Translations under genes and position numbers: made by a program
The notes under the pieces: generated by a model
The model's database searches: none
The model's input: only the letters and a program-made list of their open reading frames with translations
Told to the model about the DNA's origin: nothing
Origin: Pseudomonadota bacterium
GTDB taxonomy: Bacteria; Desulfobacterota; Desulfobacteria; Desulfobacterales; JAHIVH01
Direction of reading: 5' to 3'
Length of the DNA: 64,000 nucleotides
Assembly (NCBI GenBank): GCA_018816735.1
Contig: JAHIVH010000054.1
Span: forward strand, 1-64,000
Shown here: positions 21,195 to 36,773 of the stretch, one piece after another
Position numbering within the stretch: the first letter of the stretch is position 1
Layout: each line of letters starts with the position of its first letter

Positions 21195-23960
21195 ATGGCT
21201 GATAAAACAATGCGTGTAAACGGTCGGGAAATTTCCTTTGCGGCCGGAGAGACCATCCTTGAAGCAGCGTCCCGTTATGGCATTTCGATCCCAACGCTTT
21301 GCCATCTAAAGGGAACGACCCCCCATGGGAAATGCCGGATCTGCGTGGTGGAAATCGAAGGTGAAAAAGAGCTTAAAACCGCCTGCAACACATCTTGTAC
21401 TTCTGGCATGATGATCAGAACCGAATCAAAAAAGGTTGTGACGGACCGGAAAAAAACGCTCGAAGAACTGATCGCCCATGGCAATCACAATTGTGCGGCG
21501 TCAAGTGCAGGGAATTCGGACTGGACCGGTTTTCAACTGGCGGTTCAGCAGGATGACAATGAAAGTGAGCTTTGCCCGGTATGGGGCGACTGCAAATTGC
21601 AGGATCTGCTGTATCAGTATCAGGTGACTCAGAAAAAATCATCTGAGAGAAAATCGCCTTTGCCAAAGGAAATCGTAAACCCGCTGATCATCAGGGATTT
21701 TTCAAGATGCATTCTCTGCGGCCGGTGCGTGAGTGCCTGCAACGAAGTGCAGGTCAACCGGGTGATCGATTTTGGCGAACAGGATGGCCGGGAGAAAATT
21801 GTCACAAAAAATAATACGTCTCTCGCAGATTCGAATTGCGTGTTTTGCGGTGAGTGTATCCAGGCATGCCCTGTGGGCGCCCTTGTTGAGAAAAAGGCCG
21901 TTTATCGGTGGCGGCCCTGGGAAGTGACAAAAATCCGCACCACCTGCCCGTATTGCGGCGTGGGATGCCAGCAGATGCTTCATGTCAAGGACGGCAGGAT
22001 TGTCAAGGTGACAGGTGTTGAAAAGGGGAAACCGAATCTGGGACGGCTGTGCGTTAAAGGCCGTTTCGGATATGATTTTATCTATTCGGATGAACGGTTG
22101 AAAACCCCCCTGATCCGTGAAAACGATCATTTCAGGGAAGCCTCCTGGGATGAAGCGCTCGACCTGGTTGCAAACCGGTTCAAGGAAATTATCGCCACAG
22201 ACGGCCCGGATGCCCTGGCAGGCGTGAGTTGCGCCCGAAGTATCAATGAAGATTCCTATCAGATGCAAAAACTTTTTCGCGCGGTGTTCAAGACCAACAA
22301 TATTGATCACTGCGCCCGCACCTGACATGCCCCGACTGTCGCCGGGCTGGCGGCATCATTTGGTTCAGGTGCAATGACCAATTCATTTGGTGAGTTTTCA
22401 AGGGCAAAGATGTTTTTGGTAATTGGTTCAAATATGACAGAAGCGCATCCTGTGGCAGCCACGTTCCTGAAAAATGGGGTGCTTAAGGGTGCCAAGCTGA
22501 TCGTGGTGGACCCACGGGCCCACAAGCTGGTCGATTATGCGGATCTGCATGTGCCCATCCGGGTCGGTAGCGATATCGCATTTTTAAACGGGCTGATGAA
22601 TGTGTTGATCGGCGAAAATCTGTATGATAAAAATTTTGTTGAATCCAACACCGAAGCATTTGACGCACTGAAAGAGACAGTGAGTGAGTATCCGCCGGAA
22701 CGGGCCGCAGCGATCGCAGGCATTGCTCCTCAATTGATTGTTGACACGGCCCGTATGCTTGCCTCCGTCAAACCGGTCATGTTGTGTTATACGCTGGGCA
22801 TCACCGAACATACCTGTGGCCGGAATAATGTGGTGTCTACGGCCAATCTTCAGATGCTTCTGGGCAATATGGGGATGGAATGCGGCGGGGTTAATCCCTT
22901 GAGGGGCCAGAACAATGTGCAAGGCGCCTGTGATATGGGGGCATTGCCCAATGTTTTCCCCGGATATCAGACAGTGGTGGATGAAACAGCCAGAAAAAAG
23001 TTTGAGGCATTCTGGAATGTGTCGGATTTGCCCTCTCAAAATGGGTTGATGATGCCACAGATGATGGATGGTCTGGTTTCAGGCAAGATAAGGGGGTTCT
23101 ATATTTTTGGTGAAAATCTGGCAAGTACGGAACCGGACATTCATAAGGTAGAGCATGAACTCGCTTCTGCCGAATTTCTGGTGTGTCAGGATATTTTTTT
23201 AAACGAGACCACCAAATTCGCCCATGTGGTGTTGCCCGCGGCTGCCTGGAGCGAGAATGACGGCACGTTTACGAACAGTGAACGTCGTGTCAGCCGGGTG
23301 AGGACAGCGAGTTCGCCGCCAGGAGAGTCCAAACCAAACTGGTGGATATTCAAGGAAATCGCCAAACGCATGGGGCAGGCCTGGTCATCAGACAGCGCTA
23401 AAGAGATCTGGGATAACGAGATATCGATACTGGCGCCAGCACTGGGCGGCATCAAATATCACCGGATTGAGGGAGACGGGCTTCAGTGGCCCTGCCCGAC
23501 AGAGGCGCATCCGGGAACGTCATATCTTCATAAAGAAGGCCGGTTTACCCGGGGCAAGGGTGCATTTATTCCCGTGGAATGGACACCGCCTGCGGAAGTG
23601 CCGGATGACGAGTATCCGTTCGTGCTGAGTACGGGAAGGAGACTCTATCACTACCATACACGGACGCAGACCGGTCGGTGTGAAGGATTGAATGACCTTC
23701 TGGGAGAAGAAACCGCAGATATCTCAAAAGAAGATGCGACCATACTGTCTATCATGGATGGTGAAATGATAAAAGTGGCTTCCAGAAGGGGTGAAGTCAG
23801 GGTCCGGGCGCGGGTGACCCATGAGGTGCAGAAGGGGCTTGTATGGATGGCGTTTCATTTCCGGGAGGGAAATGCCAATTTTCTGACCAATGCAGCCTTT
23901 GATCCGTTTACCCAAACTGCGGAATACAAAGCGTGCGCGGTTCGTATTGAAAAACTGTAG
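21195..23960 (+). CDS. fdhA: Selenocysteine-containing formate dehydrogenase, catalytic subunit
   Basis: One 921-residue protein is read if TGA at 22323-22325 is selenocysteine (Sec377); the parts before and after it are in the same frame. Order: a NuoG-like 2Fe-2S domain (about 1-90, TLCHLKG...GKCRICVVEI), a Cys/His cluster segment, two 4Fe-4S motifs (CILCGRCVSAC about 173, CVFCGECIQACP about 215), the molybdopterin 4Fe-4S motif (TCPYCGVGC about 250) and the Mo/W-bisMGD catalytic domain. CART-Sec-HAPTVAGLA is the formate dehydrogenase active site. It oxidises formate or reduces CO2, and the NuoG-like front suggests electron exchange with a NAD-linked or bifurcating partner, not encoded nearby. 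No signal peptide, so cytoplasmic. The ATG has a GGAGA ribosome site; an upstream TTG is less likely. Confidence 0.93.
22338..22354 (+). promoter_or_regulatory. Bacterial SECIS hairpin of fdhA
   Basis: Twelve bases after the UGA, GTCGCC pairs with GGCGGC around the 5-base loop GGGCT. A loop that begins with G and starts about 19 bases past the UGA fits known bacterial SECIS elements such as that of E. coli fdhF, which SelB binds. Confidence 0.7.
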
Positions 23961-32232: not shown

Positions 32233-32553
32233 ATGGCAGCAAAGCAATTAATGAATGCAAAAGAATTTGAGACCGTTATCAAAAAAGGGGTGACGCTGAT
32301 CGATTTTAACGCCCCCTGGTGCGGGCCCTGCCAGGCTCAGGCCCCCATCCTCAAAAAAGTGTCGGGAAAGTTTGAAGGAAGGGCGCTTGTGGCTGAGATG
32401 AATATCGATACCAATCAGGACACTGCCGCAAGGTATTTTGTTCAAAGCATTCCCACATTGATTATTTTCAAGGATGGCAAAGAAGTGAAGCGGTTTATCG
32501 GTTTTCAGGGAGAACATGTGCTCGTGTCCGCGCTGGAGAACAGTCTCAATTAA
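32233..32553 (+). CDS. Thioredoxin
   Basis: This 106-residue thioredoxin has the active-site motif WCGPC at Cys30/Cys33, the cis-proline segment SIPTLIIFKDGKEV and normal length. There is no signal peptide, so it is cytoplasmic. A GGAGGAAAC ribosome site precedes the ATG. It is the first gene of an operon with a Cys-rich small protein, a permease and a candidate selenoprotein. I infer that it serves as the reductant of one of these partners rather than as a general thioredoxin. Confidence 0.94.
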   Translation: MAAKQLMNAKEFETVIKKGVTLIDFNAPWCGPCQAQAPILKKVSGKFEGRALVAEMNIDTNQDTAARYFVQSIPTLIIFKDGKEVKRFIGFQGEHVLVSALENSLN

Positions 32554-32814: not shown

Positions 32815-33801
32815 ATGAAAAGAATACTCTCGGGCATCAATAAAAATCTGGTGCTGGCCATTCCCTTGATGATGACAGCCGGTTTTCTATATGGTCTTTC
32901 AACCGATACCGGATTTTTAAAAAATCTGATACTGCCCTTTACGTTCTTGATGGTGTATCCCATGATGGTCAATATGAACGTCAAAAAGATATTCGAGGGC
33001 GGAGATGGAAAAACACAGGTGATGACCCAGGTCATCAATTTTGGCATTAGTCCGTTTATTGCATACCTGATCGGAATGATATTTTTTGAAAATCAACCGT
33101 ACATGGCATTGGGCATTTTGCTTGTGGGGCTTTTACCTACAAGCGGCATGACGATTTCATGGACCGGACTGGCCAATGGCAATATTGAAGCCGCCATAAA
33201 AATGCTGGTTACCGGTCTTCTTTTGGGAAGTTTTGTTACACCTTTTTACATTCAATTTTTGATGGGCACTTCGATTGATGTCAATATGCTTTCCATTATA
33301 CGACAGATCGCTCTCATTGTTTTTCTGCCGCTTGGAATCGGATATCTGACACGGAAGATCCTGATCGGTAAATATGGAGAGACTGTTTTCAAAAAAGAGA
33401 TCTCTCCGCTGTTTCCGGGGTTGTCAACCCTGGGTGTTCTGGGGATTGTGTTTACAGCCATCGCAATAAAGGCAAAAATAATATATGGTTCGCCCCAGAT
33501 GATTCTTTACATCATGATCCCTCTGGGAATTATTTACGTAGGAAATTATGCAATAAGTACGATTGCAGGCAGGCGGTTTCTGCCTTATGGTGATGCTGTG
33601 GCCCTGGTTTACGGCACTGCCATGCGGAATCTGTCTATTGCACTTGCCATTGCCATGAATGCATTTGGAAAAGAGGGGGCAGATGCCGCCCTTGTTATTG
33701 CTGTCGCCTATATCATTCAGGTTCAGTCCGCAGCATGGTATGTGAAGTTTTCAGAAAGGATTTTCGGGTTTAAAAAGACGACCGTTGCCTCTTTAGGGTA
33801 A
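32815..33801 (+). CDS. BASS/ACR3-type permease
   Basis: This 328-residue protein has about ten membrane helices and resembles the bile acid:sodium symporter / ACR3 arsenite exporter superfamily (LVGLLPTSGMTISWTGLANGN, FTAIAIKAKIIYG, GTAMRNLSIALAIAMNAFG). The Cys that ACR3 arsenite exporters carry in the fourth helix is absent: the corresponding place reads LLPTSGM. Arsenite export is therefore not assured; another oxyanion or organic anion is possible. An AAGGAGAC ribosome site fits the ATG. It lies in the sigma-54-controlled operon, followed by the candidate small selenoprotein. Confidence 0.85.
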   Translation: MKRILSGINKNLVLAIPLMMTAGFLYGLSTDTGFLKNLILPFTFLMVYPMMVNMNVKKIFEGGDGKTQVMTQVINFGISPFIAYLIGMIFFENQPYMALGILLVGLLPTSGMTISWTGLANGNIEAAIKMLVTGLLLGSFVTPFYIQFLMGTSIDVNMLSIIRQIALIVFLPLGIGYLTRKILIGKYGETVFKKEISPLFPGLSTLGVLGIVFTAIAIKAKIIYGSPQMILYIMIPLGIIYVGNYAISTIAGRRFLPYGDAVALVYGTAMRNLSIALAIAMNAFGKEGADAALVIAVAYIIQVQSAAWYVKFSERIFGFKKTTVASLG

Positions 33802-33927
33802 TGGTGATATTTAGAGTCTACGATTCTATTTAAACAGGAGACAGGAAAAAGGTTTGATGGCGACGTAAAAAATAGAATTTTTACCATGAAGTTTAAAAGA
33901 CCAACATAGATAAAGGAGCAAAAGAAG

Positions 33928-34071
33928 ATGGCAGACTGGATAATCATACTACTCATTATCGGCGGCTACCTGCTGCTGCAGTTGTATATTCTCCCCAAAA
34001 TGGGCATCTCCACCTGAATGAGGGAAGGCAATTCCTGCCAGGTGGCAGATCATAAAAACGACAAGAAGTAA
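33928..34071 (+). CDS. Candidate small membrane selenoprotein (47 residues, Sec30)
   Basis: From ATG at 33928 (AAGGAGCAAAAGAAG upstream) comes one membrane helix, WIIILLIIGGYLLLQLYILP, then KMGIST, then TGA at 34015-34017. If the TGA is selenocysteine the frame goes on through MREGNSCQVADHKNDKK to TAA. Support: (1) CTGCC/GGCAG with loop AGGT lies 17 bases past the UGA, a plausible SECIS. (2) A diverged copy of the tail at 36690-36761 has AGA for TGA, mostly synonymous or conservative changes and a whole-codon gap. (3) The genome evidently uses Sec (fdhA). Sec30 and Cys36 could form a redox pair at the membrane face. It follows the permease gene. Without Sec it would be a 29-residue peptide. 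I do not know a described family for it. Confidence 0.75.
34035..34048 (+). promoter_or_regulatory. Candidate bacterial SECIS hairpin
   Basis: CTGCC pairs perfectly with GGCAG around the loop AGGT. The loop begins 22 bases after the UGA and has G in its first two positions, as in known bacterial SECIS elements. The stem is short (5 bp). Confidence 0.6.
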
Positions 34072-34150: not shown

Positions 34151-35491
34151 TTATGATAAAGTCGGATCGACCACACTTCCGATAAATAAGATAGAACCGG
34201 TCTCTTTATCCAATATCACAAAAATGAATGGCCGGTCGATTTTCATTGCAGTATCCACCTCCGGTACGGATGTCGCCCCCATAAGCGTACCTGTTGCGGC
34301 TGCTGCCTCAGTTCCTTCTTCATCCACTCTGACAAAGGCCTTATGGGCGATTTTCGAAATGGTCAAATCTTTGTTTCCGGTTATACCTGAAAAATCACTT
34401 GTTGCCGGAAAAAATGCATCTATCATTCCCATGTTTGTTAAAATGCCGGCCAAGCCATTCATGGTATACCCGAAGGAAAATTTGGGTAAAGAGAGAGATA
34501 CTTTATGATCTGACATTTCACGGACCATTTGCCTGACTCTTGTTGCATTTAGCGAATGGTCAACAGTGTTAAATTCACCGTCTTCCGGCAGGATGACGAT
34601 CATGGATGTCTTTTCATCTTTGTATAAAAGTTCAACAGCTTGATAATCAGAACCTTCAGTGTAGGGGAATACATTTAGCTGGTGCATCATATCAACGGTT
34701 TCGATACTTCCGTCAACCAAATAGAAATCCTGGCGCTGTGTTTTGCCGCTTTTAAATTTATTTAACCAGTCTGCCAGAAAATAAATGGTGTTTGTGATAA
34801 CCAGACGGCTATTGCTTGTGACGCTTCCTTGGGGAAGCAAATCTTTAATCCGTTTTTCTGTCTGTTCTTCAACCCATTTATTGATGATTATCCTCGAAGG
34901 TTCGGGTTCGGAAATAAAATCAAGGAAGTTGATCACTCCTGAACCATATTTTTCAGAAATGATATCCAGATAATCCTGCTCAAAATGAAATCCCTCCTGG
35001 CCCCATAGTGCATTTGAGACATAAAGCCTGAATCCTTCAGGATTATCTGCCCCCTTGGTGTTAAGTGTTTCATGAAGGTCATTGAAAAATGTATGGATGT
35101 CTGCCTGGGAAAAGGAAAAGTTAAGGGCTTCAGCCATTTGTGCTTCTGTGTCGCCTCTGGCGCCCGCCCAGGCCATGGCAAGGGCGCAGGAAATACTGTA
35201 GGGCGATATAAACATATTTTTTTCGCCATTGATCGCTTTTGCTTCATGATATAGGCTGAATGAAAAATCGTTGTTCCCCATGACAAATTTTTCAAAATCA
35301 CTATATTCTAAAATATCCACATCTTCTTTCAGGTCCTCGAAGTTCTGTGCATCATTGGATTGCAATGGTTCAACAGAATCGGATGCTTCCGGTGTGTCGC
35401 TGTTGGAAGTGTTACAACTCAGCAGACTGAGCGCAGGAAGAAATAAAAACATTATAAATATCGCCGAATAGGCTTTGTAAGATTTTTTCAT
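34151..35491 (-). CDS. Serpin-family protease inhibitor, lipoprotein
   Basis: About 446 residues from ATG at 35491, which has a strong GGGGGGA ribosome site; an ATG at 35509 is less likely. A lipoprotein signal peptide (FLFLPALSLLSC) anchors it outside the cytoplasm. The serpin fold is complete: FISPYSISCALAMAWAGARG, LVITNTIYFLADW, SLSLPKFSF, KAFVRVDEEGTEAAAATG and RPFIFVILDKETGSILFIG. The hinge GTEAAAATG is the type found in inhibitory serpins. Counting from it, the P1-P1' bond may be Thr-Ser in GATSVPEV, pointing to a protease with a small-residue preference. Bacterial serpins are uncommon and may guard against foreign or host proteases. Confidence 0.93.
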   Translation of the reverse strand: MKKSYKAYSAIFIMFLFLPALSLLSCNTSNSDTPEASDSVEPLQSNDAQNFEDLKEDVDILEYSDFEKFVMGNNDFSFSLYHEAKAINGEKNMFISPYSISCALAMAWAGARGDTEAQMAEALNFSFSQADIHTFFNDLHETLNTKGADNPEGFRLYVSNALWGQEGFHFEQDYLDIISEKYGSGVINFLDFISEPEPSRIIINKWVEEQTEKRIKDLLPQGSVTSNSRLVITNTIYFLADWLNKFKSGKTQRQDFYLVDGSIETVDMMHQLNVFPYTEGSDYQAVELLYKDEKTSMIVILPEDGEFNTVDHSLNATRVRQMVREMSDHKVSLSLPKFSFGYTMNGLAGILTNMGMIDAFFPATSDFSGITGNKDLTISKIAHKAFVRVDEEGTEAAAATGTLMGATSVPEVDTAMKIDRPFIFVILDKETGSILFIGSVVDPTLS

Positions 35492-35797
35492 GGGGTATCC
35501 CCCCTTCAATAAAAGCCTCGTTATTGGATCAAAGGATGAATGTAAACTTGTCGTTTTTTAAAACGCGCTTAATTGCTGAACGTCGCGCCTCTATAAGATA
35601 AATTCCTATAGGTTCTGTTATATATCTGTCGTCAAAAATCGCAAGCAAATATTTTAAGGCGAAACATAACCCCTTTTTTTTAAAAGATACACTTGGCATC
35701 CGGCAAAGGGTTTCCATCCTAAATGATATGTAAGTATTTAAAATTAAAACATAGTTAATATGGCTATGTATTTTAATATTGACATCCTGCCATACAC

Positions 35798-36697
35798 ATG
35801 ATTACCAGTCATGCCGGACAGCAGACCCATAAGGCACTGATCGGCCAGACGCCACTTGGACCTTCGCGGAAAAGGCGCGACCCGACATATTTTATAAAAC
35901 CACTTGAAATGACAGATGCACAGGTCCGGGAGGTTATCGACGCGTTTGTGAAAGCCGCAGAACACTCTGTCAAAGCAGGTTCTGATATGGTTTTTGTTCA
36001 TGCAGGAGGCGGGGACCTGTTGAACCAGTTTATAAGCCCGTTTTTTAATGTCAGGGAGGATGACTGGGGCGGTTCTGATGAGAAACGTTTTCGTATTTTA
36101 CGGGAGATCATTGAAAAGATCCGGCATACCATAGATGATCGTGTCCCCATTCTTGTCAAAATGAATTGCAATGATCGAACGCCTAAAGCAGGGGTGACAC
36201 CCGAACTGGCAAAAAAATATACGGCATGGCTTTCGGAGATTGGTGTTGATGCTGTGGAACTGACCTCTGGGATCAAATTCTATAATCATATGAACTGCTG
36301 GCGAGGGGCGGTGCCCGTTCGTGAGTCAATACGATCTTTTCCGCTTTGGAAAAAAGGGCCGGGATGGCTGAAGATGAAGTTAACGATGGAAGGAAAATAT
36401 GAGTTTGAGGAAGGATGGAATCTCGAGGATGAGCTTCATGTTAAACCCGCTATGGGCAATATGCGGTCATTTTTTGTAGGTGGGCTTCGCAGGATAGATT
36501 TTATGGAAGAAATCGTGGAAAAAGGCTATGCCGATTTTGTCTGCATGGGCCGACCATTTATCAGGGAACCGGATCTTGTAAAGAAATTTAAAGAAGGAAA
36601 AAAACAGGCAGATTGCAAATCCTGCAATAAATGTATCGGAGGTGTCATCAATCAATTGCCGACAGCCTGCTATCGCAACGGTTTGCCGCTTGCCTGA
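35798..36697 (+). pseudogene. 5'-truncated old-yellow-enzyme (NADH:flavin oxidoreductase) gene
   Basis: The 299-residue frame begins MITSHAGQQTHKALIGQTPL, which corresponds to roughly residue 85-90 of OYE-type FMN oxidoreductases. The N-terminal first strand and FMN-binding part are missing, and an in-frame stop lies 18 bases upstream. The rest is intact: the HAGGGDLLNQF region, DDWGGSDEKRFR, VLVKMN-like ILVKMNCNDRTP, FFVGGLRR, DFVCMGRPFIREP and a C-terminal CKSCNKCIGG. Without the front part it is unlikely to fold around FMN. The end of the gene overlaps the selenoprotein-tail remnant, so this spot looks like a recombination scar. Confidence 0.75.
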
Positions 36698-36761
36698 AAT
36701 AGGCGTCGCCACCAGAATGCGGGAAGGTGATTCCTGGCAGATGGCAGATAAAAATGACAAA
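36690..36761 (+). pseudogene. Remnant of the small selenoprotein tail
   Basis: The frame reads LPEIGVATRMREGDSWQMAD, then KNDKK, and aligns with the end of the candidate selenoprotein (LPKMGISTUMREGNSCQVAD, then HKNDKK). Sec is replaced by Arg (TGA to AGA) and the tail Cys by Trp, one codon is deleted, the stop is lost and the membrane helix is gone. Nucleotide identity is about 75-80 percent. Confidence 0.7.
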
Positions 36762-36773
36762 AAATCAATGGTT

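Follow-up and report, generated by a model that had tools for sequence, protein, structure and literature searches.

An apparently undescribed family of small membrane proteins with a predicted selenocysteine in Desulfobacterota and other bacteria

Closest described selenoproteins and the locus in the window

The eukaryotic selenoprotein K is grouped with selenoprotein S. As described in PMC3628699, selenoprotein S has 189 residues and passes the membrane once, with a small N-terminal lumenal part and a cytoplasmic C-terminal tail in which Sec is the next to last residue; a Cys of this tail is proposed to form a selenosulfide with it (Cys174-Sec188). Among bacterial proteins, a review table (PMC13188914) includes Trx-like-fold selenoproteins with UxxC or CxxU motifs, TsoA (NF045695, motif LULAXC) and the deep-Sep hypothetical proteins DG (motif GUxG) and DW (motif GxU). 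The bSECIS model given there places a loop of 3-9 nt, with G at position one or two, at a distance of 16-37 nt from the UGA.

We found a gene for a predicted 47-residue membrane protein with an in-frame UGA in the window, which is the whole stretch of 64,000 nt analysed here, from a genome of the Desulfobacterales. The product, MADWIIILLIIGGYLLLQLYILPKMGISTUMREGNSCQVADHKNDKK, has a single hydrophobic helix N-terminal to position 30, and 17 codons separate the TGA from the TAA stop at 34069-34071. An initial annotation had described a strong ribosome site and a frame running through TGA to TAA, and this layout was confirmed on the sequence. The single helix followed by Sec and a close Cys is borne out by the translation and by the homologues; Sec30 keeps its number, but the Cys, given there as Cys36, is residue 37. 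Scans for promoters and terminators near the gene gave scores little above those of shuffles, all Rfam matches around it were far under their cut-offs, and plasmid records held no match to the small protein. The features are collected in Table 1.

Table 1. Features at and around the predicted selenoprotein gene (positions in the window)
Feature	Position	Strand	Remarks
Thioredoxin (PF00085, TIGR01068)	32233..32553	+	local neighbour, possible reductant
Cys-rich small protein, 67 aa	32577..32780	+	relatives near 2 other order-level loci
SBF/ACR3-related permease	32815..33801	+	neighbour in the window only
Ribosome-binding site AAGGAG	33913..33918	+	9 bases from the ATG at 33928
Predicted small membrane selenoprotein gene	33928..34071	+	47 aa + TAA; Sec30, Cys37; homologues in other genomes
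In-frame UGA, predicted Sec30 codon	34015..34017	+	TGA kept in the phylum; Cys in distant homologues
bSECIS-like hairpin CUGCC-AGGU-GGCAG	34035..34048	+	stem 17 and loop 22 bases after the UGA
Serpin (PF00079, E 2.3e-108)	34151..35509	-	convergent with the selenoprotein gene; start lipoprotein-like by eye
Flavin oxidoreductase (PF00724)	35798..36697	+	best match spans profile positions 135-259 of 342 and ends where the relic tail begins; gene looks truncated
Relic of the selenoprotein tail	36687..36764	+	helix missing; AGA in place of the Sec codon and TGG in place of the Cys codon

Judged by architecture, selenoprotein S may be the nearest functional parallel. The two share a single membrane pass and a tail with Sec and a partner Cys, and no homology is claimed. 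An N-out/C-in layout like that of selenoproteins S and K agrees with hydropathy and charge bias, and is a prediction from sequence. The new protein differs from selenoprotein S in that Sec precedes Cys and stands seven residues after a conserved Pro, and in that a SECIS-like hairpin lies within the coding region. With the Trx-like-fold selenoproteins it has in common a Sec with a nearby Cys, Cys homologues and a bSECIS right after the UGA; unlike these, it is only about 47 residues long, has a membrane helix and shows neither a match to a Trx family nor a motif listed in the table (PMC13188914). Its spacing is U-x4-C in 83 of 90 members and U-x6-C in the window, in contrast to the UxxC and CxxU of the Trx fold. 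TsoA, compared here by its table entry (PMC13188914), likewise has Sec with Cys at a short distance, but NF045695 is not among the NCBIfam matches at E≤1 of 50 members. DG, DW and DF are, like the new family, new selenoproteins of Desulfobacteria and relatives without known domains. The listed motifs of DG and DW differ from the TU found here (PMC13188914), and DF has no TGA homologues according to PMC12013277, whereas the new family has very many.

Searches of curated collections suggest that the family is new. The window protein matched no NCBIfam family at E≤1 and one Pfam family under its cut-off. Among 50 members, the best NCBIfam match was a transporter suffix domain (E 0.0065, matched by 3 of 50) and the best Pfam match had an E-value of 0.004 (its family also matched by 3 of 50); these matches are weak and scattered. 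With nothing above a curated cut-off, we rejected membership of a known NCBIfam or Pfam family. An hmmsearch of the PDB gave chance matches only (E 0.34 and 0.4), and none of the 119 selenoprotein families in the review table (PMC13188914) has this layout. The earlier remark that no family of this layout had been described thus agrees with NCBIfam, Pfam and the published lists, and the family is apparently undescribed, although an earlier mention elsewhere in the literature is possible. A study from 2007 reportedly dealt with the selenoproteome of Olavius algarvensis.

Conservation of the frame across the UGA

Searched with the 47-residue translation, 52 of 58 genomes, the window's own included, gave matches at E≤1. 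Credible copies (best E≤0.0017) occur in 49 of the 58, and each best match contains exactly one in-frame TGA; three genomes gave only matches with E 0.38-0.79, which are not credible, and six gave none. The sole genome of the same genus, which is 65% complete, is among those three and so has no credible copy. With profiles, the family was detected in 235 of the 291 genomes searched from the window's class (E≤0.01; 167 of the 200 better genomes) and in 167 of 395 genomes of its phylum (E≤0.001); because genomes recur among the 58-genome, class and phylum searches, and the profiles A1 and A3 include some of the searched genomes, the three counts are neither independent nor additive. Among the matches listed, every one at class level has at least one TGA inside, as do all but one at phylum level. 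The exception (G618) stops short of the UGA position, and reading on shows U there. The family, spread over relatives of sulfate reducers and some other bacteria, is far larger than was initially supposed, and the conservation of the gene in many genomes is, by these comparisons, beyond chance.

The Sec position is TGA in all 90 rows aligned across the phylum, 50 of which were pulled by a motif that requires TGA, while the other 40, from other classes, were placed by profile coordinates without the motif and all have U. We dropped a chance motif match (L072) and two contig-edge pieces from one genome with another copy (L047, L071) before this count; the second tandem copy of L053 is among the 90 rows and is excluded from the 49 context loci. 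The order-level consensus is MKExLIxLxxIGVWxLLQxYILPKLGIST-U-MRxACQVTxKK. Among the 50 aligned order-level members, Cys37 is invariant, which the retrieval motif did not demand, and Q18, L22, T29 and Q38 are kept at ≥90%; P23, G26 and Sec30 are also invariant, but the motif required all three. Family members have about 45-70 residues, and their helix ends in the signature LP(K/R)xGxxT-Sec, followed by a short charged tail. The Cys lies most often five residues beyond Sec and seven in the window: of the 90 TGA members, 83 have their first Cys at +5, four at +6 and one, the window, at +7, and two have no Cys within 11 residues of Sec. Beyond the Cys, the tail is variable and charged. In G041, a sequence without a stop matched weakly (E 0.047); it has SKKGISYT where members have LPKLGIST, and we took it as chance. 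The check for homologues proposed in the initial annotation thus shows that similarity continues beyond the UGA in relatives.

A diverged copy of the tail had also been cited. It exists in the window (E 0.0013, 65% identity to the selenoprotein tail), but it fails as support for Sec: the helix is absent, and Arg and Trp stand at the Sec and Cys positions. We rejected this relic as evidence for Sec because both key residues are gone.

We then examined the capacity for Sec decoding. The own genome has two tRNA-Sec matches above the Rfam cut-off, both with anticodon TCA, and two selB matches above the cut-off. The selB genes lie on contigs C11 and C31 and the tRNA-Sec genes on C101 and C31, with one of each within 1 kb on C31, so that the genome apparently carries two Sec-decoding sets. 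An FdhA-like frame in the window, named from its motif only, has an in-frame TGA at 22323 (CART-U-HAPT). Sec decoding in this genome, which the initial annotation had read from fdhA, is supported by the FdhA-like UGA frame, selB and tRNA-Sec together. In the window's order, selB is above the cut-off in 45 of the 49 genomes with a credible copy; three others hold pieces only (G008, G032, G037) and G042 has none. In a set of 30 Sec-form and 10 Cys-form genomes that are hand-chosen and mutually dependent, with G1419 taken as a Cys form from a stop-free match and the Sec-form G1252 left out, selB is above the cut-off in 27 of 30 versus 5 of 10; the three Sec-form exceptions are G1260, G979 and G1084, of which G1084 has a short piece of 198 bits. 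The best selB match in G042, a 411-residue frame with 198 bits, looks like EF-Tu. The copy in G042 (L048) has Ser in place of Thr before the UGA and no hairpin of the model type, which possibly fits decay after the loss of Sec decoding in this single case.

Natural Cys forms were sought in one scan of 84,980 genomes, which is blind to Sec forms because its pattern demanded Cys at the Sec position. It gave five loci. Four are Cys forms (L106-L109) that share the motif LP(K/R)(L/M)G(I/V)PT-C-M(S/G)xxC and come from one MAG each of Planctomycetales, Cyanobacteriota, Chloroflexi and 'Deltaproteobacteria'; the fifth (L110) matched by chance inside a long frame. Profile searches in the phyla of these MAGs, which we take to be distinct from that of the window, detected the family in 23 of 246 genomes for the Planctomycetales MAG and 25 of 282 for the 'Deltaproteobacteria' MAG, seeds included. 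For the Chloroflexi MAG, the only match in 292 genomes was the seed itself, a result that doubles as a specificity control. Among 38 non-seed loci taken from the first two of these groups, the motif is present in 36, with 31 Sec forms and five further Cys forms (L195, L202, L203, L216 and L218), while L211 and L224 lack the motif and eight genomes of the 23/246 group were unread. The Cys homologues that the initial annotation had proposed to look for thus exist in distant lineages. The Cys at +5 is present in six of the nine Cys forms read (L106-L109, L216 and L218) and absent from L195, L202 and L203. Within the group of G679, one subset carries the motif TU-x-VPxPRRS and likewise has no Cys at +5. 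Because of this subset and these three Cys forms, the pairing of Sec with Cys cannot be general, and the PRRS sequences argue against a Cys that is always needed.

The window's hairpin, with a 5-bp stem and the 4-nt loop AGGU, begins at the distance from the UGA that had been given for it. It was scored against the bSECIS constraints of PMC13188914, which we applied in simplified form. A score of at least 6 is reached by the window and 80 of the 90 members in all, versus 0.299 of 602 ordinary TGA stops drawn from these members' loci and 0.122 of base-shuffled sequences; a score of at least 7 is reached by 67 of 90, versus 0.171 and 0.058, respectively. The window itself scores 7.0, a value also reached by that 0.171 of ordinary stops, and ten members have no hairpin that fits the model at threshold 6. 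At order level the hairpin is CC-UGUC-AGGU-GACA-GG with variants, and other-class members often use a different one, with the loop GGA about 23 nt after the UGA.

Covariation was analysed in 49 of 62 distinct 24-base windows, those from the window's order, with 13 from other classes excluded. In this set, and with the reservation that the relatedness of the sequences inflates the shuffle tests, 87.2% of cells pair versus 80.8 in shuffles, 28 cells are changed on both sides versus 9.4 +/- 2.4 (none of 500 shuffles as high; 3-11 in slid versions) and the covariation score is 0.283 versus 0.168. The order-level structure beats every slid version in pairing, two-sided changes and covariation score. 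The number of pairs with a double change (3 versus 2.9 in shuffles) and of further pair types (9 versus 7.7, with 49 of 500 shuffles as high) is not special. One pair stands out (CG 32, UA 14, GC 1, UG 1 and unpaired 1 in the 49 sequences); it joins the third position of the codon immediately upstream of Cys to the first position of the codon four places downstream of Cys. The Gln codon after Cys, the source of the AG in the loop, is CAG in 55 of 55 cases, versus 31 CAG and 31 CAA among the other Gln codons in the 66 bases from the UGA on. The hairpin is thus conserved with compensatory changes, the outcome on which the initial annotation had made its SECIS proposal depend.

Alternatively, translation might stop at the UGA, leaving a membrane peptide of 29 residues, with the downstream part acting as RNA structure, as a leader or as a second ORF that would start at an AUG after the UGA. 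UGA is normally a stop, the next codon is ATG in 58 of 90 members, and the conservation after the UGA overlaps the hairpin. However, the natural Cys forms read through, six of nine keeping the Cys at +5; the remaining 32 of 90 members encode L, A, V, F, I or T directly after the UGA; the Cys is fixed at +5 while the distance of the hairpin varies among members; and selB is present in most genomes with the UGA form. We consider termination highly improbable and read the tail after the UGA as protein. Homologues, Cys forms and the covarying hairpin together support the proposal of a new selenoprotein family; that the family of the window gene is one of selenoproteins is almost certain.

Gene neighbourhoods in three groups of loci

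We compared neighbouring genes by tblastn with 18 query proteins at 49 order-level, 40 other-class and 40 other-group loci (129 in all). The raw counts below are given in this order for a distance of 1.5 kb, and they are lower bounds because 36 of the 40 other-group loci hold at most about 1.5 kb per side and several loci end at contig ends. The neighbours vary from lineage to lineage, and none of them occurs throughout.

The initial annotation had assigned the protein to the service of the adjacent permease; in the window, 126 bases separate the end of the permease gene from the ATG of the small gene. A permease match was found at one of the 129 loci, the window itself, in searches of up to 3 kb (1.5 kb for 36 other-group loci). 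With a linkage that is not conserved, we rejected this accessory role, which we regard as most improbable. Thioredoxin genes occur at 1/4/4 loci, that is at 9 of 129, eight of them on the same strand, and a thioredoxin is a plausible partner of the small selenoprotein.

Genes for an ECF sigma factor (18/0/6) and a zinc anti-sigma factor (17/0/5) are recurrent neighbours. This linkage raises an alternative in which the protein is a regulatory selenoprotein whose Sec, with or without the Cys, senses oxidised thiols or sulfur at the membrane and controls the sigma/anti-sigma pair in the manner of SigR-RsrA; the protein could then signal rather than catalyse. The sigma gene follows the selenoprotein gene in the window's order and precedes it in four of the six other-group cases, and one anti-sigma factor weakly matches RsrA (TIGR03988, 33.7 bits, cut-off 62.5). 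On the other hand, the pair is found at none of the 40 other-class loci and not in the window, and it may simply regulate the operon. We regard a regulatory role as unlikely. At 10 of 12 order-level ECF loci (for example, L039), the longest sigma ORF begins 121-127 bases after the selenoprotein start, so that the two genes may overlap in different frames.

A TAT 4Fe-4S protein (15/2/0) and a membrane partner (15/1/0) form a pair that lies upstream at 15 of the 49 order-level loci, on the same strand in all. The Fe-S protein resembles HybA and HmcB, below their cut-offs. The partner has four helices by eye and no Pfam or NCBIfam match; we take it to be cytochrome-b-like. At L026, L039 and L057, for example, the TAT 4Fe-4S protein and a hydrophobic protein stand together upstream, and no catalytic subunit was recognised in the stretches read. 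These neighbours suggest membrane Fe-S electron transfer in the window's order, and the small protein might be a subunit of such a complex, passing electrons between the quinone pool or the Fe-S protein and cytoplasmic thiols. This is less probable still than a regulatory role: the Fe-S protein is found at two and its partner at one of the 40 other-class loci, neither occurs at the 40 other-group loci, and the window lacks both.

An FmdB-type zinc ribbon (1/13/0) lies within 340 bases on the same strand at 13 of the 40 other-class loci, and MobB (8/0/0) is restricted to the window's order. FmdB itself has reported Sec forms according to the review table (PMC13188914). CcdA was found at 0/2/1 loci. 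Sulfur genes adjoin the other-group copies, with DUF302 at 0/0/6, rhodanese at 0/0/9 (three being the rhodanese domain of a PDO-like protein), PDO-like at 0/0/3 and SQR-like at 0/0/2 loci; the one exception is a CoA-disulfide-reductase-like gene (1/0/0) in L045, and none lies beside the window copy. The Cys forms of L195 and L202 continue in frame into a DUF302 domain (PF03625 for L195, a tblastn match for L202), and a DUF302 match lies shortly downstream of the Sec forms L197, L199, L204 and L208. The Cys forms of L216 and L218 stand between a metallo-beta-lactamase/rhodanese protein and a Pyr_redox_2 protein, which we take to be a persulfide dioxygenase (PDO) and SQR. In L108, the Cys form is followed by a DsbD_TM-thioredoxin fusion.

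A possible membrane-anchored redox relay

While the identity of the family appears strong, its function is predicted from sequence and gene context. Sec right after the helix, Cys in reach and operons with thiol and sulfur genes suggest a membrane-tethered selenol relay. We favour a membrane-anchored Sec/Cys thiol-redox relay, which is a probable reading; of the roles considered, thiol redox at the membrane is likely, one in sulfur chemistry possible and service to the permease unlikely. The mean net charge of the 90 members is -0.28 before the helix and +1.64 after it, in a count where 17 of the 40 other-class rows begin at the profile match rather than at Met, and this bias speaks for a tail in the cytoplasm. 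The DUF302 fusion is in keeping with this orientation if DUF302 is cytoplasmic.

In the proposed relay, the C-terminal tail would face the cytoplasm, and Sec and Cys would form a selenenylsulfide. The selenol would attack a persulfide, a polysulfide or a disulfide as the oxidised form of sulfur produced at the membrane, the Cys would resolve the adduct, and thioredoxin or a similar reductase would restore the Sec-Cys pair. The rhodanese, DUF302, PDO-like and SQR-like neighbours, together with the ECF sigma and zinc anti-sigma factors, suggest that sulfane sulfur is handled and thiol stress controlled at these loci. The assignment of sulfane sulfur as the substrate is tentative. A still more speculative proposal is that this minimal, widespread membrane selenoprotein is a persulfide/polysulfide reductase or relay tied to thioredoxin and a thiol-sensing sigma factor.

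If these readings are correct, the protein may be among the commonest selenoproteins of the window's class. A presence in 235 of 291 class genomes is high in itself, yet no credible curated model was found among those searched. The family may plausibly have been overlooked because reading up to the UGA leaves only 29 residues, and methods based on Cys/Sec pairs would plausibly miss it because Cys forms look rare. The DUF302 fusion offers a handle on DUF302. The protein is small enough for whole synthesis, so that selenol chemistry at a membrane would be directly testable, and it would provide a bacterial functional counterpart of the eukaryotic selenoprotein S.
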